Positions 7,569-61,849 of a stretch of DNA of 64,000 nucleotides are shown piece by piece (within the stretch, counting starts at the first letter, position 1; the number at the start of each line of letters is the position of its first letter). Made by a program: the position numbers and the translations under genes. The stretch lies in contig OY754464.1 in assembly GCA_963575645.1 (NCBI GenBank), forward strand, positions 66,810,948 through 66,874,947, written 5' to 3'. The notes under the pieces were generated by a model that saw only the letters and a program-made list of their open reading frames with translations, ran no database searches and was not told the DNA's origin. The DNA is from Xanthostigma xanthostigma. Its lineage: Eukaryota > Arthropoda > Insecta > Raphidioptera > Raphidiidae.

Positions 7569-8142
7569 TGTTTAAATATAATTATTATTGGGTCACCTCG
7601 TATCTTGAATGAATTCAAATACAGAATTTTAGGCCAAAAAGAAAACAATTTTTATTTGCTTACATTATTGATCAACGTTTCGGCATCAATTTGCGTCTTC
7701 TTCAGGATCTACAAATTATATTCTATTACAAATTGAAATAAAATAAACAAAAAATTAACAAAATATTATGGTATGATAAAATTATACGGGATACAAGGCT
7801 AAATATAAAAACAATTTTTATTCACTAGAACATCATTTAATCGTCAACGTTTTGGCAGGTCCTGAAGATGACGTGAATTTCTGCCGAAACGTTGACGATT
7901 AAATGGTGTTCTAGTGAATAAAAATTGTTTTTATATTTAGCCTTGTATCCCGTATAATTTTATCATAAACAAAAAATTGGAAAATTATAAAATCACAATT
8001 TTTGGTTTATTTATTTCAATTTGTAATAGATTATAATTTGTAGATCCTAAAGAAGGATCAAATTGATATCAAAACATTGATCAATAATGTAAGCAAATAA
8101 AAATTATTTTTTTTTTGCCTCAAATCCTGTGTTTAAATATAG
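7569..8142. mobile_element. Foldback element F1 with 12-bp target duplication
   Basis: The direct repeat TGTTTAAATATA lies at 7569-7580 and 8131-8142. Inside are two opposed arms of about 150 bp (7611-7760 and 7977-8130). The left arm contains, on the minus strand, the core CTGAAGA..GCCGAAACG at 7675-7704, which resembles hammerhead ribozyme boxes. A duplication longer than 10 bp suggests target-primed reverse transcription, as in Penelope-like elements. F2 is nested between the arms. Confidence 0.8.
7743..7978. mobile_element. Foldback element F2, nested in F1, 14-bp duplication
   Basis: ATAAACAAAAAATT is repeated at 7743-7756 and 7965-7978. The 208-bp insert is a near-perfect palindrome whose outer arms read ATGATAAAATTATACGGG. 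The core CTGAAGATGA..CTGCCGAAACG lies at 7862-7891. A sister copy (F3) is at 27997-28312 with about the same arm sequence. It sits between the arms of F1 and so inserted later. Confidence 0.85.
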
Positions 8143-8419
8143 TTCTCAAAACGAGTTTAAGTTCTGCAACAATCGGTAGGTACTATTTTAGTATCGTAAG
8201 ACAAGTTATTTTTTAACTAAAAATCTTTTGTAGGTATGTGTATTAGGGTGATTCAAAAAATTTTTTTAATCCTTTCTTTTTGCTCTTAGCCTCTAAAATG
8301 TTTCTATTCAATGTAAAAAATAATCCTCACGAAAGATATGCGCTGTAGCTCAGCTCTAATAGGTCGCTATTTTAATTATAGTTTCCCATTTAATTAACAT
8401 GGGAATTTTTTTATTTTTT

Positions 8420-8505
8420 TTTTAAATTGAAATTACCTGTAATTAGCGCGTTCAACCAAACAAACAACAAAACTCTTCAGCTTTATATATTAGTACCTAT
8501 ATATA
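8420..8505 (-). mobile_element. Helitron 5'-end fragment
   Basis: Minus-strand sequence TACTAATATATAAAGCTGAAG, followed by a GTTTGTTTGG-type run and GAACGCGCTAAT, matches the first 70 bp of Helitrons H1-H4. The remainder to 8260 does not match them. It is either a truncated copy or a related Helitron with a different body. Confidence 0.6.
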
Positions 8506-8984
8506 TCGTGTTCATTGTGATAATAATAATAATAAGAAAAATCGCAGGATTGTAGTCAAAAATATTAGATTTATGTAGGACGTTACAACAATCGACTTTC
8601 TGTTTTCACTGGGCTAAATACATAAAAATTTAGCGTTATATTGCCATCTTGCAACCCTATTGCGCATCTGTGGATGAAAGTAAAAATACTAATATCGCTA
8701 TTAAAAAATAGGGGTTGGTGGTAGAACGGTGAAAATTCAGGGTTATAATTATTTTTAAAGGCAAATCATAAAAAAATTTAAAAACAATTTGTACTAAAAA
8801 TAAAAAAATAATTCTAGAGAGGGCCACCCTTATCACCTAGGGGTATAAAAAATAGTCTACGACCTATTCTCAGACCTGCCAAGTATCCTACACAAAAAAT
8901 TTCATAAAAATAGGTCAATCCGTTTCGGAGGAGTTCGATAACAAACACTGTAACTCGAGATTTTTATATATAATAATAATAATA

Positions 8985-9560
8985 ATCATTTATTGCGATG
9001 CCACTAATGTGGATTGTGGATACAAACGTCAGTACATAAAAAAATTAAAAAAGATCCTTCAAATCATAAGGCACCGTATTGCAAAGATATTGCTTTAATT
9101 TGTTATTAAACTGTTCAGTTTTTTTTTTTAATTTTTGATTTCGTCAGGTAATTTATAACACATTTTGTAACCTAAGTATAAGGGACTTTTTTCAAAAAAG
9201 GTTGTATTATGTTTTAACACAATTTTGCTATTGCAGATGTTATAATTTTTTGTTTGATTTTCTGAAAAAAATTGGTTGTCTGTAAAGTCGGTTTACGGAC
9301 GATAGTTTTACGTGATAACGTATTCCGCTCGAATATCATATTTAATAATACATCGGAACGTGACACATTTCGGAACGTGACACTTTTTCGTGCATGCAGT
9401 CGGTGTTTCATCAATTTATAAGACGTTATCACGTCAAAAACATTTTTGTGTGCATAACTGTGAGCAGTTCAAGAGCAAAAATCCCGTAAAAAGTTAGTGG
9501 TTTGTTTTCTTTGAATAAATTTCGACATGAATCTCTGAATTTCATATTGAATATATTACC
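8985..9560 (-). pseudogene. LINE ORF2 C-terminus and 3' tail, split by K2
   Basis: On the minus strand, the part right of K2 reads FRDSCRNLFKE...LTFYGIFALELLTVMHTK. The part left of K2 reads FFEKSPLYLGYKMCYKLPDEI, then LKQYLCNTVPYDLKDLF and a stop. These are the usual C-terminal motifs of Jockey/CR1-like LINEs. The 3' end has GCAATAAATGATT followed by (ATT)n at 8985-9000. The reading is continuous apart from the K2 insertion at 9272-9439 and an AT-rich slip. Confidence 0.75.
9272..9439 (+). mobile_element. K-family element, copy K2 (short form)
   Basis: Same two ends as K1: TTGGTTGTCTGTAAAGTCGG at the left and GACGTTATCACGTCAAAA at the right. Internally it has two spaced copies of CGGAACGTGACAC before the conserved CATGCAGTCGGTGTTTCATC. 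It interrupts a LINE coding tail, so it is younger than that LINE copy. Confidence 0.85.
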
Positions 9561-9569
9561 CTTAAAATC

Positions 9570-10160
9570 TTCTTTTGTAGATATTATACACGAGTCTCTT
9601 CAGACGACCGGTCGATGTTCCCAGCACCGGCTAGACGCATGTGTATTATTGTGATCTAGCTGTCTTTCAGTCAGTGAATTAAGCGTAGGTACGCTGTTTC
9701 GTCTTTTGGCCGCAGTTAAAATGTAGTGGCTTTGACAGCTGATTTGATGTATTATCGTTACAAAACGTCTTGTATGCCTGTCAATACATGTCTTCCGATC
9801 GCACATTAACTTACAGTGCCGTGGGCCGTAAGTGTTTTTTTTTTATTCAAAACCCACAACATTTCCAACAGACTGTAAAATATGTTTTGCTTCACAAATC
9901 ACCTACATGATTAGTCATCATTATCATTTTATTTACAGTACTGAATATTGCGATAGATTTATAAAAAAAGAATTAGTATTTTCCGAACTTTCTGTCTGGC
10001 TATTAGTTAGTAAATAGACACACAGACGAACAACAAAGTGTTTCATTTTAATGTAGGTAAGCCTAAAAAGAAGTTAATTTTAATACTAGATCGAAGCCGT
10101 GACTTCGCTCAAGCTATGTACTGCCACCCTAATCTAGAAAGCTGTATATCAATTTTTTCC
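9570..10160. other. No recognisable feature
   Basis: Short open frames only, such as 9600-9806 (-) and 9832-10017 (+). None has a recognisable motif, signal peptide or neighbour that would support a gene. Confidence 0.4.
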
Positions 10161-10163
10161 TAT

Positions 10164-10388
10164 TTGCAACCCAAAAGAATGGCGAGACCTCTGGTGAAAA
10201 TGCGCCGAACTGTCCTAAGGGGGGTTTTTGATCGATTTAGAAAAACATGATGGAGGCTAGGTTAGCCTCCATCTTGCTTTTCTAAATCAATGTTTACCTT
10301 ATGCCTCCATAGTTTACCTGTCAAAAACCCCCTTAGGACAGTTCGGCCCATTTCTCACCAGAGGTCTCACCATTCCTTTGGGTTCCGA
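10164..10388. repeat. 225-bp palindrome
   Basis: Arms of about 85 bp start GCAACCCAAAAGAATGG and end CCATTCCTTTGGGTT, with GAACTGTCCTAAGGGG inside. A second small hairpin (GATGGAGGCTAG / CTAGCCTCCATC-like) forms the centre. The 70-codon open frame across it is a by-product. No target duplication is obvious. Confidence 0.75.
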
Positions 10389-10389
10389 A

Positions 10390-12110
10390 TTAGTAGTTGA
10401 TGTATTTTAAGGCTTATACTGTGTAATTATGTGTTATCTAACAACTCTAGAAAACATTAAGAGCACTAGATATCTTATTGTAATATTCTTGACTTAAAAG
10501 AATAACGTTTTTTAACTAAAATATTTAATTCTTTATTCCATGAATCGCACGTTACAATTGACACAAATTATAATATTTAATACCAAAATCATTAGTTACA
10601 TAATCCAATATTATATTACTTAATATTTAATAGTTATCAAAACTAAATACATTACACTTATGTACTTCGATTTTTAGGATGTATAATCTTCGCTCTGCAT
10701 GAAAATCGATTTTTCTCGCTGTTTAGCTCGTATAGCAGGAGCCTATAGCCTGAACAATACTCCATAAGTATAAACATTTTTAATGAGGACCCCTTAATTA
10801 AATTGTGAGTCACATCCATGTTTATGATGTTTTAATTATTAACTTTTTTCAAACACTGTTTACAAACGACAATATATACTGTAACACTAGTCAGTACTGC
10901 CATAAGCCGTGCGTCGTGTATGTACTGAGTCAAAGCCGTCAAAGGTGTTGACTGAGTGAGATAGATTCAGTACACACTTCTAGCATATGACAGTAATATA
11001 TGCTTATTTGTAGTAATGTGCTGACGGTAAACGCAGCTCAAATAACATACTATAACTTTTGGATCAGGAGTTGTACTATGTACACCGGAAGTATCTGATG
11101 ATGACGTTTCATGTGCTGCTTCGGAGCACACAAGAAAGTCTTCCACACAGAACACACACGAGTTTTGTGATTTGCCAGTGGTTGTTAAACTTTAGCGTTG
11201 CTTGTATAACTGTTACACTATTTTCTAACATCAAATATTGGTTAAATATATAAAATATAATTCGTTATAAATCTATAAAGTACCTAAGATTTTGGTTGTT
11301 CTGCAGCTCTGACAAACCGCCACTACTAATTATTATTGAATTTATAATGTTTCGTTGAAATCCACAGGACATGTTTATGGTGCGTGTATAAAGTTCTACC
11401 TTTGTGTTTGGAAGCCCTTTAGTACGTGGATCAAAGCTATATACTAGTGACTAGCCTATTCTTGGAGTTGAGGAGCCCTATATGCGTTTACCAAATTTAA
11501 TCGAAATCGGATTATGGATTTGATTTTAACATGGCGGAACAGATAGAAACATAACAGTCCTTTACAGTTTTGTGACTTGTATTGGTTTATCGAGAAGAAT
11601 TATTTTTTTACTTTATATGAAAAGTTTGAACTTTAAAGTTGTAACGTCTATTTCAGAAACGGTACAGCTGCAGCTGAAAGAATTCTTTAATAATGTGAGA
11701 GAAACCTTGATCACTCAAACTGAACAGACAGATTTTTAGAGGTCACATTCCTCACACGTATTCTCTGTTTACAAAATCAAATAAACTATGCTTTAAAGAG
11801 TTAATTGATTTTTTTTATTTTCTCAATGTATCATTGATTTTTATTTAAATGACCGCTGGCCATTTTATAGACTTAGAACTGTTTTTTTCAATCAAAGCCG
11901 ATTAAAAAAACAAAGTTTGTTGAATTTTTCGTTACCATTTGAGCATATTTATAAATAAATTTCAACAGACGAATGGAAAAAAACTGTTAACCGCAATAGT
12001 CGATTAATATATACAGGTGTCCAAATTTGCAACTCTCAAACTTTCCAAAGTTTGGAAACTTGTTTTAAAGATTCACACCTGTTACCAGTTGTCTATCTTT
12101 TGATTGAGTC
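10390..12110. other. Mostly unrecognised; two dispersed repeat fragments
   Basis: The stretch 10790-10875 is an inverted, diverged copy of 25305-25400 (shared CATGGATGTGA and CACAATTTAATTA). The stretch 11215-11330 is a copy of a repeat also found at 35596-35720 and, inverted, at 22040-22100. The core shared by all three is AAGATTTTGGTTGTT followed by CAGCTCT. The remainder shows nothing I can name. Confidence 0.45.
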
Positions 12111-12116
12111 CTATAT

Positions 12117-12776: not shown

Positions 12777-13030
12777 CTCTATTTCTATTATGAGTATTTG
12801 GAAAGAATTCCGTGGCATAAGGATCGAAAATGAAGCATACTGAGACTTTTTTAAACTTGCATTTAATACTAACGTTTTGATACGTTTTGTATTATTAAAT
12901 GCAAGTTTAAAAAAGTCTCAGTATTGCTTCATTTTCGATCCTTATGCCACGGAATTCTTTCCAAATACTCATCAATGGATCACAGTTACTCTATTTATTG
13001 AATAGAGTCAATCTTCATCTCTATTTCTAT
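12777..13030. mobile_element. Foldback element F12 with 12-bp target duplication
   Basis: CTCTATTTCTAT is repeated at 12777-12788 and 13019-13030. The insert is a palindrome with 80-bp arms (GAGTATTTGGAAAGAATTCC / complement). The centre contains two opposed ACGTTTTG motifs, which look like worn versions of the CGAAACGT core of the other foldbacks. The long duplication again argues against a cut-and-paste DNA element. Confidence 0.75.
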
Positions 13031-13604: not shown

Positions 13605-13900
13605 ATTCCAACCTACAAGTGGGGAATGGTATTACTAGTTTAGATCAAAACTCACTTTTCAGAAATTTTACAATATTTATTCGTCAATAAATAAAATTAG
13701 GTATCGAACAATTTTTCAGACAATATATTAACAAAATATATAATTAATACATTGTTCGGAGGATGCGAAGATCTACTACAGAAATAATCTTGTGAAGTAT
13801 GAAGGATCATTTCTGTAGTGGATTTTCGCATCCTCCGAACAATGTTTTAATTATATATTTTGTTTATATATTATCTGAAAACGGGCTAGATATTCATCAT
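13605..13900. mobile_element. Hairpin repeat and decayed foldback F10
   Basis: 13605-13637 holds the hairpin ACCATTCC..GGAATGGT, also seen at 35545-35573 and 38160-38193. Beyond it, 13660-13890 is an inverted repeat whose arms share AATTTTTCAGACAATATATT with foldbacks F7-F9. Its centre (GTTCGGAGGATGCGA) has lost the CGAAACG core. I read it as an old member of the F7-F9 family. Confidence 0.55.
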
Positions 13901-14639: not shown

Positions 14640-14669
14640 CTGAGGAAGTTTAATATATAAAACGAAACG
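14640..14669 (+). ncRNA. Hammerhead-like core, solo copy
   Basis: CTGAGGA, a weak stem GTTT..AAAC and GAAACG occur in the order expected for hammerhead boxes 1 and 2. It stands alone, without an opposed arm. It is probably a fragment of the same kind of element as F1-F12. No cleavage-site box was identified. Confidence 0.35.
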
Positions 14670-15136
14670 TTGCGATTAAAAATTATTGATCTATTTATCC
14701 TCTGAAAAATAATATTATAAGCATAATTATGTTTGCAGCAGGTATAATTCTATTCTGTCTTACTTCTAGGGTATAAATATGTATTTGTCTGATAACATAA
14801 TAATGGCTGCCACATAGATCATAATAGCTAACCTATAAACGTGGAATATTATATCTACAGTTTTCTCTTGTGAATTTATTTATGTGTTGTTTATTAACCT
14901 TTTATGAAGTGTATAGTTGTAAAATATTAAAGTTAAGTAGGGGAAGTTTTGTGTACCTACAATTGGGTAAGAATAAAACATTATTTTGTGAAACTTTTTT
15001 GTGACATTTACACTAAAGCCATCGATCGTATTTTTGGGTGAACGTTAAAATATACTTTAACTAACTTTTATACCTGATAATTTGCTTGGTGAATTGAAAG
15101 TAAATTTAATTCTAACGAATAAATTTGTTCCATGTT

Positions 15137-15456
15137 TAGTAACTTCTATATAAAGTATTGTTGATCCAATAGAATATTAAGATGAAGGAGGGTTTTTGGT
15201 TGAGGATCATAAAATAAGCTTTACCAGTGTTTCGCTAGTGGCCAACGTTTCGAACAACAAAAACATCTTTTGAACAAGGTTTCTTTTTACATTAAAAATT
15301 GTGATACAATATGTTCTAAATTATATACATATATACATGTTCATAGGCCTTGAAGATGAAAATAAATTTTTCGAAACGTTGGCCACTAGCGAAACACTGG
15401 TAAAGCTTATTTTATGATCCTCAACCAAAACCTTACTTCATCTTAGTAACTTCTAT
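15137..15456. mobile_element. Foldback element F4 with 14-bp target duplication
   Basis: TTAGTAACTTCTAT flanks the insert (about 15136-15149 and 15443-15456). A unique left tail (TTGTTGATCCAATAGAAT) precedes a palindrome whose arms read GGTTGAGGATCATAAA..AAGCTTTACC. On the plus strand, 15349-15378 holds TTGAAGAT-GAAAATAAATTTTTC-GAAACG, a stem flanked by hammerhead-like boxes. It is a sister of F5: the unique tail of F4 matches the opposite flank of F5. Confidence 0.85.
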
Positions 15457-22882: not shown

Positions 22883-23992
22883 TTAAGGAGGTTGAGCCGT
22901 TTTACGAAGATAATGAAATAAATCTGAAATAAAGTTTTTTTAATAGATTTTTTTATGACAAAATTTTCTGTAAAAAATCCAAAATCATTAGGAGGTTTAT
23001 AAAGTTAAAAATTAAAAAAAACTTTTACATGTAGTCTTATGGAAAATATGTCAACCTAGCATGCAAACGGTACATTTTAATTATTTAAGACTTGTAAAAT
23101 GCAATGTAATTAGTTCAAAAACATTTTATTTGCCAACGTTTCGACTACATAAATTTAGTCTTTCTCAAGGCTTTAAAATACATTTAAACACCGAAGTCAA
23201 ATTTTAAAAACATAAAATACTTATATGAAACATACAAATTCATTAATTAATGTCATTAACAAAGATATTTCTATTTTATTTTTAATTAATTTTAGCACAT
23301 GTCACTTAAAAATTTTTTTTTTGTTAATAATTTTTAAGTGACATGTGCTAAAATTAATTGAAAAAGAATAAATTTATGTAGTCGAAACGTTGGCAAATAA
23401 AATGTTTTTGAACTAATCACTCTACATTTTACAAGTCTATTGTGCCCAAGATAATTTTCTAAAGGTACATTTTATTTTTTTGCAAATAACCAAATAATGT
23501 CAGCAGTTCCGAAAACTAAATATGTAAAGCATCGATGTCTTACGCATATTTTAATATTTTTTCCAATTTAATTAGGAGACTTTTATTCAAAAAAAAAAAT
23601 TATTAAACCTTAGCACTTTTCGATTATGGACTTTTATTCTTGACAATTTTAACAATTTTAACTGAATTTTCAACTTTTTAATGATTTAATTTTAATTTTT
23701 ATTACTTCTAATTTCTTTTTTTAATTATTTACTGCAAAAAATATGTAAAATACAGATATTTGCATAAATTTATTTTTTCTAGCCTAACTTTGTACAATAA
23801 ATTCAAAAGTCCATTAAATAAAATACTGCAATAATTAATTAATATTAAAAAAAAATATTTATTTATGCCTTTATGACAATAATTTATTAGTTTCATCGAC
23901 TTATAACCTTTTGTCAAAATTTATTATGTAAAAGTTCCCATTTAAAATTCGACTTACTTTTGATTGGGACTGTAATGCATCAGCCTCCTTAA
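22883..23992 (+). mobile_element. TTAA MITE family 1, copy B
   Basis: TTAA lies at 22883-22886 and 23989-23992, with termini GGAGGTTGA and TCAGCCTCC. The body is the same as copies A and C. It is enlarged by foldback F6 (23080-23463), and it preserves the empty site for K1. The 62-codon minus frame at 23729-23917 is accidental. Confidence 0.88.
23069..23474. mobile_element. Foldback element F6 in MITE copy B, 11-bp duplication
   Basis: GGTACATTTTA is repeated at 23069-23079 and 23464-23474. Copy A of the MITE shows the unoccupied site with a single GGTACATTTTA, which proves both the insertion and the duplication. The arms read CTTGTAAAATG..AACATTTTATTTGCC. The core on the minus strand at 23137-23169 is TTGAGAAA-GACTA..TAGTC-GAAACG, with a 5-bp stem. 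Confidence 0.9.
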
Positions 23993-26079: not shown

Positions 26080-26693
26080 ATAGCGGTCCTGTCCGGTTTC
26101 ACCCGGGTGTAAAATAGTGAATGGGGAAGGAAGGAACATGAGTACACACATTCATCTTAGTTTACCGAGATGAATGTTGTATCCAAATTTCATGATGATC
26201 GGAGTTACCGTTCAAAAGTTTTTGTCGAAAAAAAGCAGTATTTAAGTATACTTATTTTAACTAATAATTTTTTTTAATTAATTAAATAAAATTAAAATAA
26301 ATTTAAATGTAAGCCTTAGAAGAAAGCAATGTAGAAAATAAAAAAAAAATAAAAATATATTCACCAAACGTGAGGTTCGAACCCACGATCCTGATATTGA
26401 CAGTCGCATGCTCTACCGATTGAGCCAGCTGGGGTTGTGTACTCACAACGCTAATGTGAGTACCTATATCTAGTTAGTGCATTTCACATGATTATTTTTG
26501 AGATACATTTTGCAACATTTTTCATTAAAGCTCCGCTCTTAATGGTCGTAGCTTGATATTATATAGCCTAAAGCCTTCCTCGATAAATGGGCTATCCAAC
26601 AAAAAATTTTTTTTTCAATTTGACGCAGTAGTTCCTGAGATTAGCGCGTTCAATCAAACAAACAAACTCTTCAGCTTTATATATTAGTGTAGA
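26080..26693 (-). mobile_element. Non-autonomous Helitron H2 carrying a tRNA-like gene
   Basis: Same body and orientation as H1. The 5' end TCTACACTAATATATAAAGC starts at 26693, and the 3' hairpin (CCCGGGTGAAACCGG) ends near 26080, where the terminal CTAG has decayed to CTAT. A short direct repeat (ACCACCCT.AAGG, CCTATTAAATAGAAAAAG) lies on both sides (25980 and 26735), so it sits in or next to an older duplicated repeat. Confidence 0.85.
26362..26434 (-). tRNA. tRNA-Lys-like pseudogene, anticodon loop reads GTC
   Basis: Minus-strand cloverleaf with GGCTCAATCGGTAGAGC and GTGGGTTCGAACCTCAC. The anticodon loop CTGTCAA is the same as in H1, so the change predates the H1/H2 split. The anticodon stem is mismatched, and the T stem and acceptor each contain mispairs. 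It is Helitron cargo and probably not functional. Confidence 0.7.
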
Positions 26694-27266: not shown

Positions 27267-27994
27267 TTTTGACGTGATAACGTCTTATAAATTGATGAAT
27301 CACCAATATTATGATGAATCACCAATATTATAAATTGATAAAACACCGGCTGCATGTACGAAAAAGTGTAACGTAACGTTCCTAACGTTCCTAACGTTCG
27401 TAACGCGTAACGCATAACGCATAACGCGTAGCGTTCCGCCTGACCCTGTGCGTGCTTTTTGCTAATTTCTCGCTCAATTTAAATCAGATCGGTTTGAAAC
27501 CAGTCTTAAACGAAAGAGGAGAACATTTTACATAGATTTCGTATAACAGAATTTGCCTAAACAGTTTTTTTATACAAATTTATATAGAAAAATATTTTAT
27601 ACAAATTTATATAGAAAAATAGCTGTATAAATGCAATGTTGTGTAATGAATGACGCGACGCGGTCGGTTGTCTTTGTTTGCCGTACATGGAAATTAGAAA
27701 ATAACGTATGTCTTGTCTTAACATGAAAACGGCTGCATTTCTAATGTTTAATTCAATTTTTTGACATTAGTATTTTGTGAAATGCAACGCCTGCTAAGTT
27801 AACTATTGGAATAACTAATTATTATTAGAACATAATACTTTGTAAGTTGCAAACGTCACTTTTGACATTTCTTATCATTCCGACACCAAGGATAAGCGGA
27901 TTGAAACCAAATTTTGGGAGGTTTAGGTTATGTATTACGGAATACGTTATCACGTAAAACTATCGTCCGTAAACCGACTTTACAGACAACCAAT
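27267..27994 (-). mobile_element. K-family element, copy K4 (long form, 728 bp)
   Basis: Minus-strand ends TTGGTTGTCTGTAAAGTCGG and TCACGTCAAAA. The inside matches K6 nearly base for base, for example ACGCGGTCGGTTGTC and GAAAACGGCTGCATTTC. Between the right end and this body is an array of ACGTTCCTA / AACGCGT / AACGCAT units, different from the one in K6. There is no transposase. Confidence 0.88.
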
Positions 27995-27996
27995 TT

Positions 27997-28312
27997 TTTT
28001 TTGAAGTTATAAAATAAAATAAAACACCTTGGTATTATGGTATGATAAAATTAACGGGATACAAGGCTAAATATAAAAACAATTTTTATTCACTAGAACT
28101 TAATTTAATAGTCAACGTTTCGGCAGAAATTATTGTCTTCTTCAGGACCTTAAAAATGTCTAGTTTGTGACTTTTTACTAGACATTTTTAAGGTCCTGAA
28201 GAAGACAATAATTTCTGCCGAAACGTTGACAATTAAATGAAGTTCTAGTGAATAAATATTGTTTTTATATTTAGCCTTGTATCCCGTTCCAATCATCATA
28301 CCTTTTTTGAAG
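27997..28312. mobile_element. Foldback element F3, sister of F2, 10-bp duplication
   Basis: TTTTTTGAAG lies at 27997-28006 and 28303-28312. The arms share ATGATAAAATT, CGGGATACAAGGC and TATTCACTAGAAC with F2. Both arms keep the core CTGAAGAAGAC..CTGCCGAAACG (28115-28144 minus and 28196-28225 plus). It sits directly beside K4. Confidence 0.8.
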
Positions 28313-29724: not shown

Positions 29725-30404
29725 GGATAGTTTTTAGGCCAGTCATATCTAACATTAAACTTGCAAACTAACATGTAGTTCTGATTTTTTAATATATTGT
29801 TAGGACCACTACCAGTAGCGTATATCCATGTTTGCAGCTTCGAAAGACCTGTGCTAACTTTGCAACACTCAAAAAACTGCGAAATTTTCGCACTTTTTTT
29901 GGTATTCTCAATATAGGTCTTAAACTATGCATTTTTTTATAAAATATTTTTTTACGTTTTTAAGTAGACTAAAATTGCTACAATCTGAGACAAGAACCAG
30001 CTCTGTAGGTTCAATACTTACCGAGATACAGCTTTCCAAAAATTGACCAGTTTTTTCAACAAAGTGAAATTTTAAGATTTGGTCAATTTTTGACCCCGAT
30101 ATCGGGGAAAATACTCATTTTAAGGGAAATATCATAGGAACATATATTGTAGCAAATGTAATTAGCTTTAATTTAAGCAGAGAACGACGTCTGTAGGCCA
30201 TATAGCTTACTCACAAATTTTAAAAATCCAAAAAATGAGAAAACTGCATTTTCGCAAATTTAAATTTAATACCTAATAATCGTTATGTAAATCCATTCAG
30301 TGATTTTAATGTGGTTGAGTAACCAAATTGAGTAGCATAGTAGCATAAACGAGTAACATAATAAAAAAAATAACATAATTGATAACATCATAAAAAAATT
30401 ATGC

Positions 30405-31670
30405 AGTTTTTGACAAAATACCGTCGTATTTCAGCCATTTTGTAAAAAATATTTACAAATTATATTCATGAACCTTCCTCGTTTATCGCTCTTTCTATTA
30501 CCGAAAACAATTTCAAAATCCGGTGCGTGGTTTAGTAGAAGAGAGCGGAGAAAAAGACAGAGACTTTGTTTTTAACTGTGCAGTCTTTGACAAAATACCG
30601 TCGTATTTCAGCCATTTTGAAAAAATATTTACAAATTGTATACAGAAACCTTCCTCGTATATTGATCTTTCTATTAGCGAAAACCATTTCAAAATCCGGT
30701 GCGTGGTTTAGAAGAAATGACCGGTGAAAAAGACAAAGACAGTCTGAGACTTTGATTTTAACTATGTAGTCTTTGCTAAAATTGCGTCGTAGTTCAGGTA
30801 TTTTGTAAAAAATATTTATAAATTATATACAGAAACCTTCCTCGTTTATTGCTCTTTCGACTACCGAAAACCATATTTAGATCCGGCGCATGGCTTAGAA
30901 GAAGTGAGCTGAGAAAAAGACAAAGACAGACAGAAGCTCTATTTTTAACTATGCAGTCTGAGCTAAAACACTGTCGTAGTTCAGGCATTTTGTAAAAAGT
31001 ATTTACAAATTATATACAGAAACCTTCCATGCTTATCACTCTTTCTATTACCGAAAACCATTTTACGATCCGGCGCATAGTTTAGAAGAACACCGACGTT
31101 GTTTTGTCAAAGACTGCATAGTTAAAAACAGTCTCTGTCTGTCTTTGTCTTTTTCTCCGCTCACTTCTTCTAAACCATGCGCCGAACCTAAAAATGGTTT
31201 TCGATAGTAGAAAGAGCAATAAACGAGGAAGGTTTCTGTATATAATTTATAAATATTTTTTACAAAATAACTGAGCTACGACGGAATTTTAGCAAAGCCT
31301 ACATAGTTAAAATCAGAGTCTCTGACTGTCTTTGTCTTTTTCACCGGTCATTTCTTCTAAACCACGCACCGGATTTTGAAATGGTTTTCGCTAATAGAAA
31401 GATCAATATACGAGGAAGGTTTCTGTATACAATTTGTAAATATTTTTTCAAAATGGCTGAAATACGACGGTATTTTGTCAAAGACTGCACAGTTAAAAAC
31501 AAAGTCTCTGTCTTTTTCTCCGCTCTCTTCTACTAAACCACGCACCGGATTTTGAAATTGTTTTCGGTAATAGAAAGAGCGATAAACGAGGAAGGTTCAT
31601 GAATATAATTTGTAAATATTTTTTACAAAATGGCTGAAATACGACGGTATTTTGTCAAAAACTGCATAAT
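30405..31670. repeat. Inverted tandem array at the centre of G3
   Basis: A unit of 177-187 bp starts at about 30405, 30582, 30769 and 30955 on the plus strand. Three units lie in reverse between 31105 and 31670. Each contains GACAAAATACCGTCG-like, CCTTCCTCGTTTAT and TTCTATTACCGAAAAC phrases. The fourth unit forms the unpaired loop of the palindrome. Units differ from each other more than the arms do, so the array is older than the palindrome's last homogenisation. Confidence 0.85.
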
Positions 31671-32569
31671 TTTTTTATGATGTTATCAATTATGTTATTT
31701 TTTTTATTATGTTACTCGTTTATGCTACTATGCTACTCAATTTGGTTACTCAACCACATTAAAATCACTGAATGGATTTACATAACGATTATTAGGTATT
31801 AAATTTAAATTTGCGAAAATGCAGTTTTCTCATTTTTTGGATTTTTAAAATTTGTGAGTAAGCTATATGGCCTACAGACGTCGTTCTCTGCTTAAATTAA
31901 AGCTAATTACATTTGCTACAATATATGTTCCTATGATATTTCCCTTAAAATGAGTATTTTCCCCGATATCGGGGTCAAAAATTGACCAAATCTTAAAATT
32001 TCACTTTGTTGAAAAAACTGGTCAATTTTTGGAAAGCTGTATCTCGGTAAGTATTGAACCTACAGAGCTGGTTCTTGTCTCAGATTGTAGCAATTTTAGT
32101 CTACTTAAAAACGTATAAAAAATATTTTATAAAAAAAATGCATAGTTTAAGACCTATATTGAGAATACCAAAAAAAGTGCGAAAATTTCGCAGTTTTTTG
32201 AGTGCTGCAAAGTTAGCACAGGTCTTTCGAAGCTGCAAACTTGGATATACGCTACTGGTAGTGGTCCTAACAATATATTAAAAAATCAGAACTACATGTT
32301 AGTTTGCGAGATTAGCGATTTTTAGTGTAAAATATGACCGGGCTATTTCGAGAAAAATGCATTTCAAAATATTTTTGAGTTTTTTTTGACTATTTGAACA
32401 GGTATTTGAACAGGTACCAGGTGGCCATTGCCAGGTAACCTTTTTTTTCATCATTCTCTAACGACTCACCAAGTTTCACCTTTTTGGGTGGTTTTGTTGA
32501 GGTTTTTGCCAGATTGACTGTACTATAATGCATTAATGATTTCCACAGCTACCAAATAAACAAAATCCG

Positions 32570-34520: not shown

Positions 34521-34719
34521 TCTAGTTTTAAAAAATCAACATTCTATGACTATGCTTAAATAAATTGTTTATAAATTTTTAAATATTTAAATAAATTATT
34601 GTATTGTCATGGGTTCTTAATACGTGTGCAAAATTTCAAATTATTCAGACGTTTGGAAGTGGGTGAAATATAATTGAAAGATTCCATTAGAAATACAGGT
34701 GAATAAACCAAATTATCTA

Positions 34720-34965
34720 CCAATTTTTCAGACACTATATTGAATAAAAAAATATAGAATTATAATTCAATAAATTAACGTTTCAGTCCCAAATTGAATT
34801 TTGTTAGAAACTAATTAATAATTAATTTTTATATTTTTAGTTCAATTTTGAAGAGCACCCAAATCCGGACTTAAACGTTAATTTATTCAATTATAATTTT
34901 ATACTTTGTTAATATAAGTATTGTCTGAAAAATTGGTCGATAATTTTATTTATTGAAGAGTAATC
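34720..34965. mobile_element. Foldback F7 (decayed member of the F8/F9 family)
   Basis: Arms ACCAATTTTTCAGACA and TGTCTGAAAAATTGGTCGA, with TTAACGTTTCAG on the left and TTAAACGTTAAT on the right. The right-hand core has mutated to TTGAAGAG..CCGGACTTAAACG. The right end continues ATTTATTGAAGAG and ATCAGACGTTAAACAAAG, as in F8. Confidence 0.65.
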
Positions 34966-37832: not shown

Positions 37833-38107
37833 GTATTTTGCCACGGCCCACGATGAAGGAAGGTTTGGTTAAGGATCCAGAAATAAGCTTTACCAATGTT
37901 ACGCTAGTGGCCAACGTTTCGAAAAAATGTATTTTCATCTTCAGGGTCTCAAGCTGGTCAAATAGTGAAGATGAAAATACATTTTTCGAAACGTTGGCCA
38001 CTAGCGTAACATTGGTATAAAGCTTATTTCTTGATCCTCAACCAAACCTTTCTCCATCGTGACATTTTATTGGATCAACACTACTATCTACTGAAGTCGT
38101 ATTTTGC
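37833..38107. mobile_element. Foldback element F5, sister of F4, 9-bp duplication
   Basis: GTATTTTGC lies at 37833-37841 and 38099-38107. The palindrome arms share GGTTGAGGATC, AAGCTTTACC and CTAGTGGCCAACGTTTCG with F4. Cores at 37915-37944 (-) and 37965-37993 (+) give CTGAAGAT-GAAAATACATTTTTTC-GAAACG, with a clear stem. The right tail TATTGGATCAACA is the reverse of F4's left tail. Confidence 0.85.
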
Positions 38108-39275: not shown

Positions 39276-39788
39276 ATTGATTATTCAATAAATAAAATTA
39301 TCGACCAATTTTTCAGACAAATATATTAACAAAAAATATAAAAATTAATACATTAACGTTTCGGTCCGGATTTGGACCTTTTTCAGAACTAATCTAAAAA
39401 ATATATACCTATATCTATTAATTTTTATATTTTGATGGGATAACGTCTTATAAATTGATGAAACACCGGCTGCATGCACGAAAATAAATTGATGAAACAC
39501 CGGCTGCATGCACGAAAAAGTGTCACGTTCCGAAATGTGGTACGTTCCGAAATGTGTCACGTTCCGAAATGTGTCACGTTCCATGCACGATCGGCCCAAG
39601 TTTGACAGCTACTAAAATTTAGGTTATGTATTATTCGAGCGGAATACGTTATCACGTAAAACTATCGTCCGTAAACCGACTTTACAGACAACCAATTTTG
39701 TGTTAATATTTTGTCTGAAAAATTGGTCGATAATTTTATTTATTGAAGAGTTCTAATCAGACGTTAATCAAAGATTTATATTGATTAT
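39276..39788. mobile_element. Foldback element F8 split by K5
   Basis: ATTGATTAT lies at 39276-39284 and 39780-39788. The left arm has ATCGACCAATTTTTCAGACA and the right arm the complement. The core on the minus strand at 39357-39386 is CTGAAAAA-GGTCC-AAATCC-GGACC-GAAACG, with a perfect 5-bp stem. The right arm lacks the core. K5 interrupts it at 39430-39695. Confidence 0.8.
39430..39695 (-). mobile_element. K-family element, copy K5
   Basis: Minus-strand TTGGTTGTCTGTAAAGTCGG is at the right edge and ATCCCATCAAAA (one base off the consensus CACG) at the left. The segment AATTGATGAAACACCGGCTG is duplicated, and ACGTTCCGAAATGTG units are repeated three to four times. TTTT occurs at both edges and once in the reconstructed F8 site, consistent with a 4-bp duplication. 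Confidence 0.85.
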
Positions 39789-47389: not shown

Positions 47390-47625
47390 ACTTTGATTAA
47401 CGTCTGATTAGAACTCTTCAATAAATAAAATTATTGATCAATTTTTCAGACAAATTTAGTAACAAAAAATATAAAAATTAATACATTATCGTTTCGGTCC
47501 GGATTTGGACCTTCTTCAGAACTGATATAAAAAATATAAAACTTAATTAATAATTAGTTTCTAATTGGTTTAAAAAAAAATTGATAATTATTTTTTTTTC
47601 AAAAACCAATTAGAAACTAATCATA
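47390..47625. mobile_element. Foldback F9 (F8 family) with best-preserved core
   Basis: It begins with the reverse of F8's right end (GATTAACGTCTGATTAGAAC), then AATTTTTCAGACAAA. The core on the minus strand at 47490-47519 is CTGAAGA-AGGTCC-AAATC-CGGACC-GAAACG. A short second palindrome (ATTAGTTTCTAATTGGTTT) closes it at 47558-47622. No clear target duplication. Confidence 0.75.
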
Positions 47626-50881: not shown

Positions 50882-50914
50882 CGTTTCGTCTACAACTGCG
50901 GTAGACATTATCAA
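50882..50914 (-). ncRNA. Hammerhead-like core, solo copy
   Basis: The minus strand reads TTGATAAT, then a perfect 6-bp stem GTCTAC..GTAGAC and GAAACGTCAGG. The stem and GAAACG box match the foldback cores, and box 1 is one or two bases off. No opposing arm was seen. Confidence 0.4.
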
Positions 50915-52886: not shown

Positions 52887-53600
52887 TCTATACCTACTAA
52901 TATAAAGCTTAAGAGTTTGTTTGTTTGGTTAAACGCGCTAATCTCAGGAACTACTGGTTCGAATTGAAAAGAAAATTTTTGTTGGATAGCCCATTTATCG
53001 AGGAAGGCTATAAGCTATATAATATTATATAATATATAATGTTGCAAAATGTACCTCAAAATTAGCGTCTATTCAGGTGAAATGCCCTAACTAGATAATC
53101 CAATATTAACGTCGCATATTCACAAGCCCGACTAGCTCAATCGGTATAGCACGCGACTCTTAATATCAGGGTCGTGGGTTCGAGTCCCACGTTGGGCGAA
53201 TATATTTTATTTTTTACCTTACTTTAACATTTTAATTTATTTTAATTTTATTTACGACTAATTAAAATTAAATAAATCTAATTAATAACTCATTTGAAAA
53301 CTATTACAACTACAGGTAGATACCTACCTATATAAAAATAATTTTCCTACAGTGTTTTCAATTAAATATTTATTATATTTTATTAATTCCAGTAATTATT
53401 GATTTAAAAGTAATTTATCACCTATACTTATAAAAAGTAAAAATACTGCTTTTTATCGACAAAAACTTTTGAACGGTAACTCAGATCATCATGTTTGGAC
53501 ACAACATTCATCTCGATAAACTAAGATAAATATGCATACTCATGTCCCTCCCTTACCCATTCGTTCTTTGCACTCGGGTGAAACCGGGCGGGACCGCTAG
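52887..53600 (+). mobile_element. Non-autonomous Helitron H3 carrying tRNA-Lys-like gene
   Basis: It starts A|TCTATACCTACTAATATAAAGC and ends GAAACCGGGCGGGACCGCTAG|T, with the 3' hairpin CACTCGGGTGAAACCGGGC. At 714 bp it is the longest of the four copies. The cargo tRNA is on the same strand, as in H1 and H2. Confidence 0.92.
53126..53198 (+). tRNA. tRNA-Lys(CTT)-like gene in Helitron
   Basis: This is a 73-nt cloverleaf with a fully paired 7-bp acceptor (GCCCGAC / GTTGGGC) and an intact T-arm GTGGGTTCGAGTCCCAC. The anticodon loop is CTCTTAA (CTT, Lys). The D stem has one mismatch (GCTC / TAGC) and the anticodon stem three. It is the best preserved of the three cargo copies and shows that the ancestor was tRNA-Lys. 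Function is doubtful because of the broken anticodon stem. Confidence 0.75.
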
Positions 53601-55362: not shown

Positions 55363-55365
55363 TTA

Positions 55366-56358: not shown

Positions 56359-57027
56359 TTGGTTGTCTGTAAAGTCGGTTTACGGACGATAGTTTTACGT
56401 GATAACGTATTCCGTAATACATAACCTAAACCTCCCAAAATTTGGTTTCAATCCGCTTATCCTTGGTGTCGGAATGATAAGAAATGTCAAAAGTGACGTT
56501 TGCAACTGTCAAAGTATTATGTTCTAATAATAATTAGTTATTCCAATACTTAACTTAGAAGGCGTTGCATTTCACAAAATACTAATGTCAAAAAATTGAA
56601 TTAAACATTAGAAATGCAGCCGTTTTCATGTTAAGACAAGACATACGTTATTTTCTAATTTCCATGTACGGCAAACAAAGACGACCGACCGCGTCGCGCC
56701 ATGCATTAGACAACATTGCATTTATACAGCTATTTTTCTATATAAATTTGTATAAAAAAACTGTTTAGGCAAATTCTGTTATACGAAATCTATGTAAAAT
56801 GTTCTCCTCTTTCGTTTAAGACTGGTTTCAAACCGATCTGATTTAAATTGAGCGAGAAATTAGCAAAAAGCACGCACAGGGTCAGGCGGAACGTTACGCG
56901 TTAGGAACGTTACGTTAGGAACGTTACGACCGTTAGGAACGTTACACTTTTTCGTACATGCAGCCGGTGTTTTATCAATTTATAAGATTGGTGATTCATC
57001 AATTTATAAGACGTTATCACGTCAAAA
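56359..57027 (+). mobile_element. K-family element, copy K6 (long form, 669 bp)
   Basis: Ends TTGGTTGTCTGTAAAGTCGG and GACGTTATCACGTCAAAA. The body matches K4 in reverse orientation. Before the CATGCAGCCGG right end it has its own array of GGAACGTTACG / TTA units. A fragment AAATTTGGTTTCAATCCGCT is shared with repeat R. Confidence 0.88.
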
Positions 57028-57059: not shown

Positions 57060-57150
57060 CACCAAGAACACATTGACAAAATTTCATTAAAATCTGTTCA
57101 GTGGTTTCGAAGATTAGCGCGGCTAATATTGTGACACGGGAATTCTAAGG
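57060..57150 (+). repeat. Fragment resembling the 8850-8975 repeat
   Basis: CAAAATTTCATTAAAATCTG, then TTCGAAGATTAGCGCGG and TATTGTGACACGGGAATTC follow the order seen near 8900-8975 (TTTCATAAAAATAGGTC, CACTGTAACTCGAG). They are probably old fragments of one insect-wide element. Confidence 0.4.
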
Positions 57151-57159
57151 ATATCAGAT

Positions 57160-57775: not shown

Positions 57776-57777
57776 AA

Positions 57778-58208: not shown

Positions 58209-59620
58209 TTGTTATCCGGTGACCATCGCAGCCTAAAGATTATATTATTAAAGATTATATTGGGGTATTCTGTGCTAATAATATGCTTTTTAAACACTAT
58301 ATATTGAAACAGGCTTAAACTGTAGTGTTGGTGGTTGATCAGGTTCTTTTGTGTTAGTAATAACTTCGAGTTTGATTAAATTATCTTTATTTACAACACC
58401 AACTTCAACATGTCCACTACCTCACTCCTTCTTCCTTCCAAATATACATATATTTATATCAATTTGAAATGCAAACCCATGCGCATTTAACTAGAACAAT
58501 TAAGTAAGTGTTATAGTTAAATACTACGTTTGCAGTTTACATTGCAACTGATATACGAAACTTAACCTACATACTGTATATACAGTACAAAACAACTAGA
58601 ATTTAAAATATATTTTTTTCTCTCTGTAAATTTCAGGACTTAACGTTTTCATAATAGCGAATTTTCACCACCATTTAGCTTTCAGAGCACGTAAACTTTA
58701 AATTCCTATATCGTTACATAAATCCTCTTTGAAGACGGGCAGCCCATAGAGAAAGAACGCTGAAATGCCACGACAAAGGGCAGAAGGTGAAGTCTTGACT
58801 CAGTCGGTGTTGACGAAAGTTATATTTATTGTCTGTCAGAATATCCTCTCGAATTATTTAGTCAATAGAACCGGTGGATGGATTGCAATTTGTTTCTGTC
58901 AGCCACCCCGTTTATAGAATAGCGAAGACACCTAGGTGTGTTTGAGTATCGTGCTTCATTGTAAAAAAAGCTAGACACTTGCATTTGTTATACAAAATTG
59001 TGAGATACACTGACCTGCTTTATATTTCACTGAAATCTGTCACGTATGTGTCATTTATCGATTTTGTAATGCGCATGTACAATCTACTCAGAACATGCTC
59101 AGAATAACTAGCCCGCTTGTTAGAAATGTACCAACAGTTGGCACCATAGAGCTATTAGACTGGAGTACGCAAGTAAGCCGTGAAAGTGTCTGAAATTCAG
59201 ACAAAGAACAGTTCCTTATCTCTATGGTAACTAATGATACAAAACAATGCTGATTTTAGTAAACAAATATCTGGTTTTCTGGGCTTTCTGCAGCGTTCTC
59301 TCTCTCAACTCTAGTTGCTTATATCTCTATGGTTGGCACTTTTCGTGAACATAATATTACACTCAGTGTAAATTGCACTGAGATATCTATACTACACTAA
59401 TATACCGAACATACCTTATGCGTTTCTCGTGGATTTTCTATACTTTTGTTGTACATTTTTAACCATTAACAGAGCTGTTCCCGCGGCTTCGTACTCGTGC
59501 ATTTCCAACTATTACTCAGTAATTTTTGACATACATACTTGCCATGCTAGTTTTTAAAGACTGCACACACCATACCGGCACGGACTAGCACAGCACGAAC
59601 CTGCAATTTCGTATACCTGT
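58209..59620. other. No recognisable feature
   Basis: About 1.4 kb. I looked for terminal repeats, tandem units and coding motifs on both strands and found nothing convincing. Confidence 0.4.
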
Positions 59621-59630
59621 ACAGATCACC

Positions 59631-59674
59631 AACTGCAAAATGTCTGCCCTACACGGGGCAGACATTTTACAGTT
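59631..59674. repeat. 44-bp perfect hairpin
   Basis: AACTGCAAAATGTCTGCCC faces GGGCAGACATTTTACAGTT over a 6-base loop, with one mismatch in 19 pairs. It is too short for a standard pre-miRNA. It may be the collapsed ends of a MITE, like the hairpin at 5511. Confidence 0.8.
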
Positions 59675-59695
59675 TTCAAGTAATGAATGTACAAC

Positions 59696-60480
59696 ATGGA
59701 CGTGCGTATTTCGATGGAAGACGTTTTTATTTTGACGACTTTGTATGAAGAGGAGGAAGATGAAGAAGCCACAAAAAAAAACGGCTTAAGTGCGAGTCAA
59801 ACTCGCGCACCGAGGGTTCCGTACAAACTTGTAGGCATGTAAATAGTTCGTCCATCACGAGAATCGAGTCTCGAAGATTTGGAAAACTGTCGCGGTCAGT
59901 TTGCCAACTAAGCGTGTAATTGCAATGAGTTCAGATGGACTACTAACTATTGTAACTCGTGGCTATATCTGCGAGCTTAGTTGTCGTACCGTGTTGCATG
60001 CGAGAGTCCTCATATTGTGCTGTATAAACGCACCGGTAGCGGGCGCTTGTTTTGTATTAGAACTGTTACTGTGTACGTGCGTAGCATCTTGTTGCGGTTT
60101 AAGAACTTTGTTTTTTTGTGATGTAACTACAAATTTACGGTTTTCGGATTTTTCCCTTTACTTGTGCTAAAAGACATTGCCTCTTTTACCAAATTTTACG
60201 ATTCTAGGCCAACAGGTAGTACCCAATAGGTTTTGTTTCCCAAGAGTCTTGACAGACAGACAGACAAACGGACAACAAAGCGAGTTACTTTTTTCCTTTT
60301 GAGGTACGGAACCCTAAAAAAGAAGGTTTTGATTACACTCTGTTAAAAGAAGAAGCAATATGGTGAATTTCACCACTTATTTTCTGAATTATGGAGAGAG
60401 ATCAATGTTTTTTTTTCTATATTTTCGAATATCACAACATATATTCTATGAACTCTTGGATACCATGCTTCTTCATCTAT
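59696..60480 (+). pseudogene. PIF/Harbinger (HARBI1-like) transposase N-terminus, broken
   Basis: The first part reads MEDVFILTTLYEEEEDEEATKK up to 59772. After a 550-bp insertion the reading resumes with RRF, a stop where W is expected, LHSV, then GEFHHLFSELWRE. After a frameshift in a T-run it gives YFRISQHIFYELLDTMLLHL. 'RRRFWVHP...GEFH.LF.EL...F..YFRMS...F.ELL' is the conserved N-terminal block of Harbinger transposases. The DDE catalytic part is absent. Dead gene, with at least one stop, one frameshift and one insertion. Confidence 0.7.
59773..60322 (+). mobile_element. Insect GACAGACAG repeat inserted in the Harbinger gene
   Basis: It starts ACGGCTTAAGTGCGAGTCAA and CTCGCGCACCGAGGGTTCC. 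It ends GACAGACAGACAGACAAACG, CCTTTTGAGGTACGGAACCC and TAAAAAA. These paired phrases bracket a very widespread insect repeat, SINE- or MITE-like. GGGTTCCGTAC near the left and GTACGGAACCC near the right are inverted. It lies in an A-run of the transposase gene. The 89-codon frame at 59901-60170 lies inside it and is not a gene. Confidence 0.75.
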
Positions 60481-61000
60481 AGTACAATAAAAGGAGCACC
60501 AAAACACAAGATTAAATCGATCCAGCAAGGTCAGGCATAAGTGACTGGTGCTGGTCTAATGTGCGCCACTCCATTAAATAACATGAGTACCTTCACGAAC
60601 AGGCTGTTCTAGTCCTGGCTGTGCGAGTTCGTACTGAAATAGTGCGGCCGGTCATTGGAGTAAAGGGGTTATTGTCATAGCGAATGACAGTTTACAACAT
60701 AAATGCCGCTACCGGAACACGAACCCCGAACATTCAGATTCGTGCTGATTGCGTTTTCAATTATTTAACAGTGCTCTAAAAGTTAATGTGCTGGAACATG
60801 TCTGTCTATTTAGGACACTGTGAAATAATTGATAACGCAATCAGCAAAAATATACGTATTTCGGGTTATTATATTGTTGTGAATGCAGCTTTAGCAGAGT
60901 GTGTATTCGCCGCAATGCTTACGTTGAGTGTTTATATAAATCAGTGCCAATTATTACGTAATCTGCCATTCCTTAATCACTGTATTTAGATTGTTGTAAT
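60481..61000. other. No recognisable feature
   Basis: This should contain the rest of the Harbinger gene if it were complete, but no DDE motif is seen. The 67-codon frame at 60786-60989 is hydrophobic and unrecognised. Confidence 0.35.
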
Positions 61001-61072
61001 TTGTTATTCGGGATTCTCTCTGTATGGTTTCTTAGAAACTTTGAAGAGTTCGTTATTTACTACTGAAATAAT

Positions 61073-61453
61073 TTGTTGCGTAATATGTTGGGATGTACAT
61101 ATAAAAAAAAGAAGAGCCGGCAGAAAGAATATAACAGATCTAAACTTAATTATGCCCCTACAGCTAGCGTTTCCAGGAGTCCGGATAAAGTCGGACATAG
61201 GCTTTTTGATTGCGTGTCCTGCCAAAATAAACGGTGTCCGACTTGTCTGGCTTTTGTTAGGCTTTTTACATTTCGCAAACGAGCGAGCGTCAAAAATGAC
61301 AAAAATAACTCAATATCAAGTTATCAAGACAAATCGAGAGTAGTAAGAAGAAAATTAATAGAACGATCTATCGAACGACGTAAATTATTTATAAAACAAT
61401 TATTTTATTTTTCGTTGTCAATGAGTTCGTTCTATTAACTTTATTCTTACCAC
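61073..61453 (+). other. Unrecognised 121-codon frame overlapping a hairpin
   Basis: The frame is rich in Lys/Arg and contains CVSCQNKRCPTC (residues 47-58), a CxxC-x4-CxxC arrangement that could bind zinc. Its 3' end overlaps a hairpin (AGTAAGAAGAAAATTAATAG at 61340 and its near complement at 61424). A second frame (61041-61343) overlaps it out of phase. There is no family match that I know, so it is probably a chance frame. Confidence 0.2.
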
Positions 61454-61521
61454 ATTTGTGTTAACAACTTGATATCAGTTATTTTTGTCATTCAGTTTTC
61501 ATTCGCGAACTTCGAGTTAAC

Positions 61522-61849
61522 ATTATACCTAAATATTGGAAGATTAAAGGATGAAACCTGGTGGCATGAGATCAATGAACTAAGCAAATACTGAAAGTTT
61601 TTTATTGCATTTTATTGTCTGGCGTTTCGGCAAACTCTATGCCATCTTCGGAGAATCTAGAAGATATAGAAGATGGCATAAAGTTTGCCGAAACGTCAGA
61701 CAATAAAATGCAATAAGAAAACCTTCAGTATTTGCTTAGTTCATTGATCCTATGCCACCAGGTTTCATCCTTTGATCTTCCAATATTTAAACAGGATCAT
61801 CATCACTCTAAATTATTAGAGTTATTTTTCACAATTATACCTAAATATT
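61522..61849. mobile_element. Foldback element F11 with 16-bp target duplication
   Basis: ATTATACCTAAATATT lies at 61522-61537 and 61834-61849. Palindrome arms GGAAGAT.AAAGGATGAAAC and the complement enclose cores at 61623-61651 (-) and 61668-61695 (+): CCGAAGAT-GGCA..TGCC-GAAACG. The right tail of 35 bp beyond the palindrome is unpaired, as in F4 and F5. Confidence 0.88.

Follow-up and report, generated by a model that had tools for sequence, protein, structure and literature searches.

Nine foldbacks and their direct repeats

The window analysed here is a 64,000-nucleotide stretch of the genome of Xanthostigma xanthostigma, an insect of the family Raphidiidae (assembly GCA_963575645.1, contig OY754464.1, positions 66,810,948 to 66,874,947 of the forward strand; positions below are those of the window), and it carries a series of short foldbacks, each built of two inverted arms. 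An initial annotation, made from the sequence alone, had described at least nine such foldbacks with terminal direct repeats and had ascribed them to Penelope-like elements (PLEs). The nine that it listed were all confirmed when we read the sequence, and the repeat coordinates given for them are mostly correct; the exceptions are the right-hand repeat of F1, which ends at 8141, and the repeat of F4, which is 14 bp long and begins at 15136.

F1 (7569–8142, no strand assigned) is a head-to-head pair of pseudo-long terminal repeats (pLTRs) between direct repeats at 7569–7580 and 8130–8141; its core, of the hammerhead type described below, lies at 7705–7676 on the minus strand, its right arm is decayed, and its ends reach 95 and 53 nt past the cores. 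F2 (7743–7978, with 14-bp repeats at 7743–7756 and 7965–7978) sits in the centre of F1 and has one full core at 7862–7891 (plus strand) and a left core truncated within stem II; the other arm of F1 provides the corresponding empty site, uninterrupted and with one copy of the target. F12 (12777–13030, 12-bp repeats at 12777–12788 and 13019–13030) belongs to a GATAC arm family with relatives at loci L014, L024 and L035, and keeps only half a core. F4 (15136–15456, 14-bp repeats) has its right core at 15350–15378 on the plus strand, with UU in the UH box, and its tail, a feature treated below, is on the left arm. F6 (23069–23474, 11-bp repeats) has a core at 23168–23137 on the minus strand and an arm family like that of the PLE locus L054. 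F3 (27997–28312, 10-bp repeats) has cores at 28145–28116 (minus) and 28196–28225 (plus) and a left end that is longer by 32 nt; its family has at least 66 arms in the genome among the matches listed. F5 (37833–38107, 9-bp repeats) has cores at 37944–37915 (minus) and 37965–37993 (plus) and its tail on the right arm. F8 (39276–39788, 9-bp repeats) is of the GATCC/GGTCC arm family, which is linked to a GIY-YIG remnant at L008; its core is at 39386–39357 on the minus strand, and its right arm has tail sequence and no core. F11 (61522–61849, 16-bp repeats) has cores at 61651–61623 (minus) and about 61667–61695 (plus). The core, which had been described as often present in both arms, is confined to one arm in F8, is full in one arm and truncated in the other in F2, and is halved in F12.

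The centre of F8 (about 39435–39700) is an unrelated repeat with a variable minisatellite core of 17-bp and 34-bp units, and its end reads AAACTATCGTCCGTAAACCGACTTTACAGACAACCAATTT. This repeat also abuts F3 (27957–27996) and occurs in L058, and tandem units similar to its minisatellite are found at 9353–9387, 27285–27430 and 56888–57011.

The direct repeats were compared with those of 39 mismatched flank pairs per foldback; the sample numbered 40 (contig C1 contributed 19, the window 7 and the F5 family 14), and F8 and F12, in which one arm has lost its core, were omitted. The repeats of F1 (12 bp), F2 (14 bp), F4 (14 bp) and F11 (12 bp as scanned, 16 bp in full) are reached by 0/39 mismatched pairs and those of F3 (10 bp) and F6 (11 bp) by 2/39, while the 9-bp repeat of F5 is not beyond chance, since 10/39 mismatched pairs reach it.

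A hammerhead-type core in the arms

The order of motifs in the cores is that of a type I hammerhead: stem I, CUGANGA, stem II, GAAA, (stem III), UH and stem I again, in the usual numbering and box names. The initial annotation had given the first box as CTGANGA, which is exact in F1, F2, F3 and F5, and is replaced by variants of one or two letters in F4, F6, F8 and F11 (TTGAAGA, TTGAGAA, CTGAAAA and CCGAAGA occur among them). It had also reported that the third box, the UH cleavage site, was missing; this box is in fact present directly after GAAACG, mostly as UU. The two letters at this place are TT in 50, TC in 15, AT in 5 and TA in 2 of 72 distinct matches, chosen on sequence only, from the loci and the window, and in 24 representatives picked by hand they are UU in 14, UC in 4, UA in 2 and other letters in 4. 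After UH come about 3 nt complementary to those just before CUGANGA, which form stem I; they read GUC/GAC in F3, GAUC/GAUC in F1, GGCC/GGCC in F4, GCC/GGC in F6, GUU/AAU in F8 and UCU/AGA in F11, and UUGC/GCAA, ACU/AGU, UGC/GCA, CGC/GCG and UAC/GUA in other families, with two pairs or fewer in some cores. The CUGANGA, GAAA and UH boxes and stems I and II of a minimal type I hammerhead are thus all found, and in place of a stem III hairpin there is a bare ACGU palindrome. One extra nucleotide stands between CUGANGA and stem II: 50 of the 72 matches pair best when one nucleotide is skipped, none when zero or two are skipped, and the remaining 22 have fewer than three strict pairs. In F1–F3 the second pair of stem II is mismatched, and their cores are for this reason missed by our descriptor. 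With a relaxed descriptor the window yields 23 sites, where 40 shuffles give a mean of 8.8 (maximum 15); when stem I of at least 3 bp is also required, the figures are 6 and 0.55 (maximum 3).

The motif is very abundant in the host genome (623 Mb in 28 contigs were searched). The exact pattern CTGANGA-N4-30-GAAACG occurs 23,208 times (11,528 and 11,680 on the two strands), and the reversed pattern, used as a control in the same genome, 731 times (359 and 372).

Minimal hammerhead ribozymes of PLEs were reportedly described by Cervera and de la Pena in 2014, and the cores here are like such minimal forms in CUGANGA, GAAA, UH, short stems I and II and the lack of a helix III hairpin; the extra nucleotide after CUGANGA may set the cores here apart from the published ones. 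According to part of a review (PMC6155905), PLE hammerheads usually have no helix III. We regard these cores as candidate hammerhead ribozymes, with cleavage predicted from sequence.

Covariation of stems I and II

The initial annotation had noted that the stem sequence varies while pairing is kept, and the arm families bear this out. Among the 24 arm-family representatives, 61/72 positions of stem I (first three pairs) are paired, against a mean of 32.8 (maximum 49) in 20,000 permutations, and 94/96 of stem II (first four pairs), against a mean of 57.5 (maximum 74) in as many permutations. Since a stem II of 4 bp was a condition for collecting cores, selection accounts for part of the stem II score; no such condition was set for stem I. 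When the stem II filter is removed, 72 of the first 100 pattern matches have at least four stem II pairs, including G-U. We aligned 23 of the representatives (L019 was dropped as a sister of L021), and 91.9% of cells are paired in this alignment against 54.7% when shuffled, a level that 0/500 shuffles reach; sliding the partner lowers pairing to at most 52%, and the covariation score is 0.973 against 0.221. The number of pairs changed on both sides (6/7) is not above shuffles in the same alignment, where 355/500 reach it. Covariation of both stems is strong across this set of 23.

The arms do fall into several unrelated families, as had been proposed. The representatives are mostly unlike one another, and the 14 most similar of 276 pairs have identities of 0.63–0.73 over 60 nt, where shuffled 60-nt arms give a mean of 0.52, a 95% point of 0.60 and a maximum, in 200, of 0.68. 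The pairs that rank highest, L019/L021, L054/F6 and L018/L005, are probably sister families. A clustering at an identity cut-off of 0.62 was rejected because it put unlike arms together in 3 groups.

When the RNA of one whole foldback (F3) was folded, its core was buried in the duplex between the arms, which makes the source element the probable place of selection on it; source elements probably need the hammerhead stems at the junction of pLTR and open reading frame (ORF), and this would be why the stems are conserved.

Cores beside Penelope-like ORFs

The foldbacks of the window have no recognisable ORF, and tblastn found no match to PLE proteins in it. A search of the whole genome for the GIY-YIG family gave at least 37 matches among the 150 of 521 candidates that were scored, and 30 loci were extracted. 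The ORFs of L065 and L059 contain both RVT_1 and GIY-YIG above cut-off, and the few named homologues of one of this genome's PLE proteins are mostly insect proteins. In 16 of the 18 loci L061–L078 the core CTGAAGATGAGAGC...GCTCTCGAAATG lies about 300–310 nt past the endonuclease domain (L064 and L068 have no core in the stretch examined), and in L066 the next tandem ORF starts directly after the core. At many sites the GIY-YIG domains and stretches of the ORF in these loci are nearly identical, and the family therefore looks recently active.

The initial annotation had suggested looking for Penelope reverse transcriptases next to the same arms, and for some families these, or their remnants, are present. 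The PLE locus L049 has the same core as foldback L018; L056, L058 and L060 have a core identical to that of foldback L036; L008 has a GIY-YIG remnant (tblastn E 5e-12) beside a core of the F8 family; and the core of L054 is like that of F6, with agreeing stems and a 60-nt arm identity of 0.72 (maximum 0.68 in 200 shuffles, although 276 pairs were compared). In this way four arm families have cores downstream of GIY-YIG domains or remnants, and two of them, F6 and F8, are present in the window.

Orientation, centres and framing repeats

The arms of the foldbacks point outward. Among 25 neighbouring pairs no more than 2.5 kb apart on contig C1 (first 100 places), 20 are divergent, 1 is convergent and 4 are direct. 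In the F5 family (40 of 1,828 candidates scored) 23 of 25 are divergent, 1 convergent and 1 direct, and since three insertions were counted twice (L079/L094, L093/L097 and L087/L101), 20 of the divergent pairs are distinct. In the F3 family (40 of 1,361 candidates scored) all 27 listed pairs are divergent, with none convergent or direct, and 12 of the 66 arms are unpaired.

This orientation bears on metazoan retrozymes, small non-autonomous elements that would spread as hammerhead-processed circular RNAs. Part of one account (PMC7229834) describes them as small units that do not code for protein, contain type I hammerhead motifs and have long target site duplications, and for which PLEs have been proposed as helpers; these points favour a retrozyme reading. 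Yet retrozymes consist of tandem units in direct orientation and have canonical type I hammerheads, whereas the foldbacks are inverted (direct neighbours number 4/25, 1/25 and 0/27 in the three sets above), and in place of a helix III hairpin they have the bare palindrome. Direct neighbours are rare and no canonical type I hammerhead is found, and we consider a retrozyme origin highly unlikely.

The centres differ in length and sequence in 19/19 of the divergent pairs compared (of the 20 on contig C1, one pair whose arms lie 2,420 nt apart and are of different families was omitted), which argues that foldbacks arise anew at each insertion. In several foldbacks the arms reach no more than some tens of nucleotides upstream of the core before they stop, and in 15 of the 27 F3-family pairs the gap between the arms is -2 to 25 nt. 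A common 5' end of the template just upstream of the core was considered and is not claimed, because inner ends are scattered within the F5 family. Differences between the two arms of a foldback number only 0–3 of about 91 nt in 13 of 23 cases, often fewer than between arms taken from different foldbacks.

The flank comparison included, from the F5 family, 14 of the 19 distinct divergent pairs outside the window (L082, L088, L091, L092 and L100 were left out for short or third arms). Direct repeats of 10–17 bp that are matched by at most 2 of 39 mismatched flank pairs frame 19 of the 40 foldbacks, and in all 19 the two ends lie unequally far from the core, the difference being 17–52 nt. These repeats and the empty site of F2 indicate short target site duplications of variable length, such as PLEs make.

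Two separate PLE insertions close together, or a later inversion or recombination between two pLTRs, could also place arms in opposite orientations, and a few pairs do have quite different arms (27, 19 and 14 differences of about 92 nt in L020, L015 and L025). A single direct repeat frames the whole pair in those 19 of 40 foldbacks, and the orientation is almost always divergent, so that this explanation appears extremely improbable. Likewise, foldback or miniature inverted-repeat (MITE-like) DNA transposons, moved by a transposase and with the hammerhead-like motif a coincidence, share with our elements the inverted-repeat anatomy only. The direct repeats vary from 9 to 17 bp, the ends are unequal, the centres change from copy to copy, and certain of these arm families have PLE ORFs or remnants beside them (transposases were not specifically searched for); the fixed-length target site duplication and shared internal structure of such transposons are not found. 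We regard this explanation as scarcely credible.

A tail at one end only

Four arm families have, as their longer end, a specific 25–30 nt sequence, which we call the tail. Exactly one tail is present in 29 of the 31 foldbacks of these families, none in 2 and both in 0. We defined the four tail strings on a few of the same 31 foldbacks, and those few necessarily have a tail on at least one end; scoring did not extend to the remaining 9 of the 40, for whose families no tail string was defined. The tailless foldbacks are L019, which is of a sister subfamily and still has ends unequal by 26 nt, and L027, which lies within a longer palindrome. With independent ends, no more than half of the foldbacks would be expected to be one-tailed, and the probability of reaching at least 29 of 31 would be about 2 in 10 million. 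These counts indicate that two start sites are used once each per insertion.

The endonuclease-bearing family L061–L078 behaves in the same way. Its short end stops at CTCTATTTTTTATTA and its long end adds the 34 nt GATTCAAACCACAGTGCTCTTAATATTTTTGTTA, and all 6 of its head-to-head pairs (one of them the composite L065–L067) have one long and one short end, with direct repeats of 11–16 bp near the ends (these were not compared with chance). The other 3' ends of this family are short in 7/7 cases. In L066 the 34-nt tail lies a few nucleotides before an ATG.

The tails of the F5, F11, F12 and L061–L078 families share, by eye, an AC-rich stretch (GGATCAACACTACT, GGATCATCATCACT, GGATCACAGTTACT and GATTCAAACCACAG), which in F11 and F12 is followed by a small hairpin. 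This AC-rich stretch may mark the start of reverse transcription.

Self-priming, in which a single complementary DNA (cDNA) folds back and copies itself, would also give inverted arms, and self-priming with an antisense template has been proposed for rotifer PLEs in part of PMC3846280. Palindromic junctions and near-identical arms in many foldbacks are in its favour. Copying of an arm should, on the other hand, reproduce its end, yet 29/31 foldbacks and 6/6 endonuclease-bearing pairs are one-tailed; we therefore think self-priming a possible but rather unlikely origin.

Proposed origin of the foldbacks

We propose, at a probability of roughly 70%, that the foldbacks are ORF-less insertions of GIY-YIG-type PLEs in which both nicked strands primed reverse transcription near the tail. 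Each arm would be the end of a pLTR, with a minimal type I hammerhead at the junction of pLTR and ORF followed by the region in which reverse transcription starts. The endonuclease would make a staggered cut, and both nicked strands would then prime on element RNA at two neighbouring start sites, one of which would yield the tail and the other none; the two cDNAs would run inward past the hammerhead and be joined head to head in the middle. The placement of the tail before an ATG in L066 suggests that reverse transcription would begin close to the 5' end of the messenger RNA, which would explain why many products are short. Two-sided priming of this kind would account most simply for arms that point outward, ends of unequal length, direct repeats that frame the pair and centres that differ.

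The initial annotation's Penelope-like assignment is supported by the linkage to PLE ORFs and remnants, by covariation and by the asymmetric tail. Its short non-autonomous units are better understood as products that arise with every insertion than as copies of one short element of fixed form, given that 19/19 centres differ.

The elements of this genome resemble known GIY-YIG PLEs (Poseidon of Anolis, Penelope of Drosophila virilis and the Pen families of Adineta vaga) in an ORF with reverse transcriptase and GIY-YIG, a pLTR whose minimal hammerhead is close to where the ORF begins, inverted pLTRs in head-to-head order, a tail of about 31–34 nt at one end and short, variable target site duplications. 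They differ in that the window copies have no ORF, that the arms of several foldbacks extend at most some tens of nucleotides upstream of the core, and that more than 20,000 cores occur in this one genome. In rotifers, parts of PMC3846280 describe inverted pLTRs that are mostly head to head, one of which may have a 31-bp tail, and target site duplications of 8–10 bp. For Anolis, parts of PMC11167929 report that the PLE protein cleaves and primes both strands, with two internal starts and the tail between them, that these lie in an AC-rich stem-loop 111–118 bp into the ORF, and that the hammerhead cleaved only when protein was added. The Anolis start is thus inside the ORF, whereas here the tail ends just before an ATG in the one family in which this could be seen (L066).

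Several observations weigh against our proposal. No convincing direct repeat was found for 21/40 foldbacks, and near-identical arms also fit copying of one arm from the other. Foldback pairs were gathered within 2.5 kb, so that their shortness arises partly by selection. In the C4 composite L065–L067 the tail is on the longer arm, and so it is not tied to the shorter one. An informal look at match ranges showed that inner arm ends do not pile up where cleavage is predicted. A search around arms of the F5 family found no PLE ORF (0/30 loci, 1.5 kb on each side); the F5 and F3/F2 families may move in trans or may be a slightly different thing. Finally, a covariance-model scan, which the initial annotation had recommended, gave no match to the Rfam hammerhead models up to E 10 in the window or in 7 loci, among them two PLE loci; because the PLE loci are also without a match, this silence is uninformative about the hammerhead. 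Matches to microRNA families of Rfam were taken as chance matches of long hairpins.

A more tentative extension of two-sided priming is that a pair of element RNAs is joined by its ACGU palindromes, which stand where stem III would be, into a dimeric hammerhead, and that a protein dimer with one RNA for each nicked strand would be forced to use two non-equivalent starts and so give a head-to-head product. We think this possible but rather unlikely. When dimers of 7 cores were co-folded, intermolecular pairing appeared near UH in some and other pairings in the rest, and we do not use this as evidence. If the dimer reading were true, the hammerhead would be a device for pairing templates at least as much as a cleaver.

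Other features of the window

Two decayed foldbacks are absent from the initial annotation; by eye, one (13702–13892) has arm ends like those of F8 and the other (34702–34954) is like the F8 arm family. A single core of the L009 arm family lies at 14640–14669 (plus strand; stem II GTTT/AAAC, stem I GC/GC), and another, belonging to the F8 arm family and followed by tail sequence, at 47490–47519 (minus strand). A possible single core at 50882–50914 (minus strand; stem II GTCTAC/GTAGAC, UH box UC, first pair of stem I unformed) is the weakest of the set and may be a chance match.

Positions 29932–32136 hold a 1013-nt inverted repeat, 98% complementary and with a 179-nt spacer, made of 187-bp tandem repeats; no match to the relaxed core descriptor lies inside it. 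Two tRNA matches above the Rfam threshold are at 53126–53198 (plus strand) and 26362–26434 (minus strand).

Implications

The PLE family, the minimal hammerhead, inverted pLTRs and the tail were already known, and what is new here is the counted one-tail rule and the model of two-sided priming. In the literature that we covered, in part and without key papers, we found no account of ORF-less foldbacks with a counted one-tail rule, which is weak evidence of novelty. In the stretches tested, standard hammerhead models miss a motif that is present some 22,000 times above control in one genome. The origin of the inverted structures of PLEs is a standing question, and a great many short products with clean framing are available in this genome for approaching it. 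The one-tail rule, seen in four arm families and in the endonuclease-bearing one, means that the two ends of an insertion are not chosen independently, and it is directly testable in the existing in vitro PLE system.

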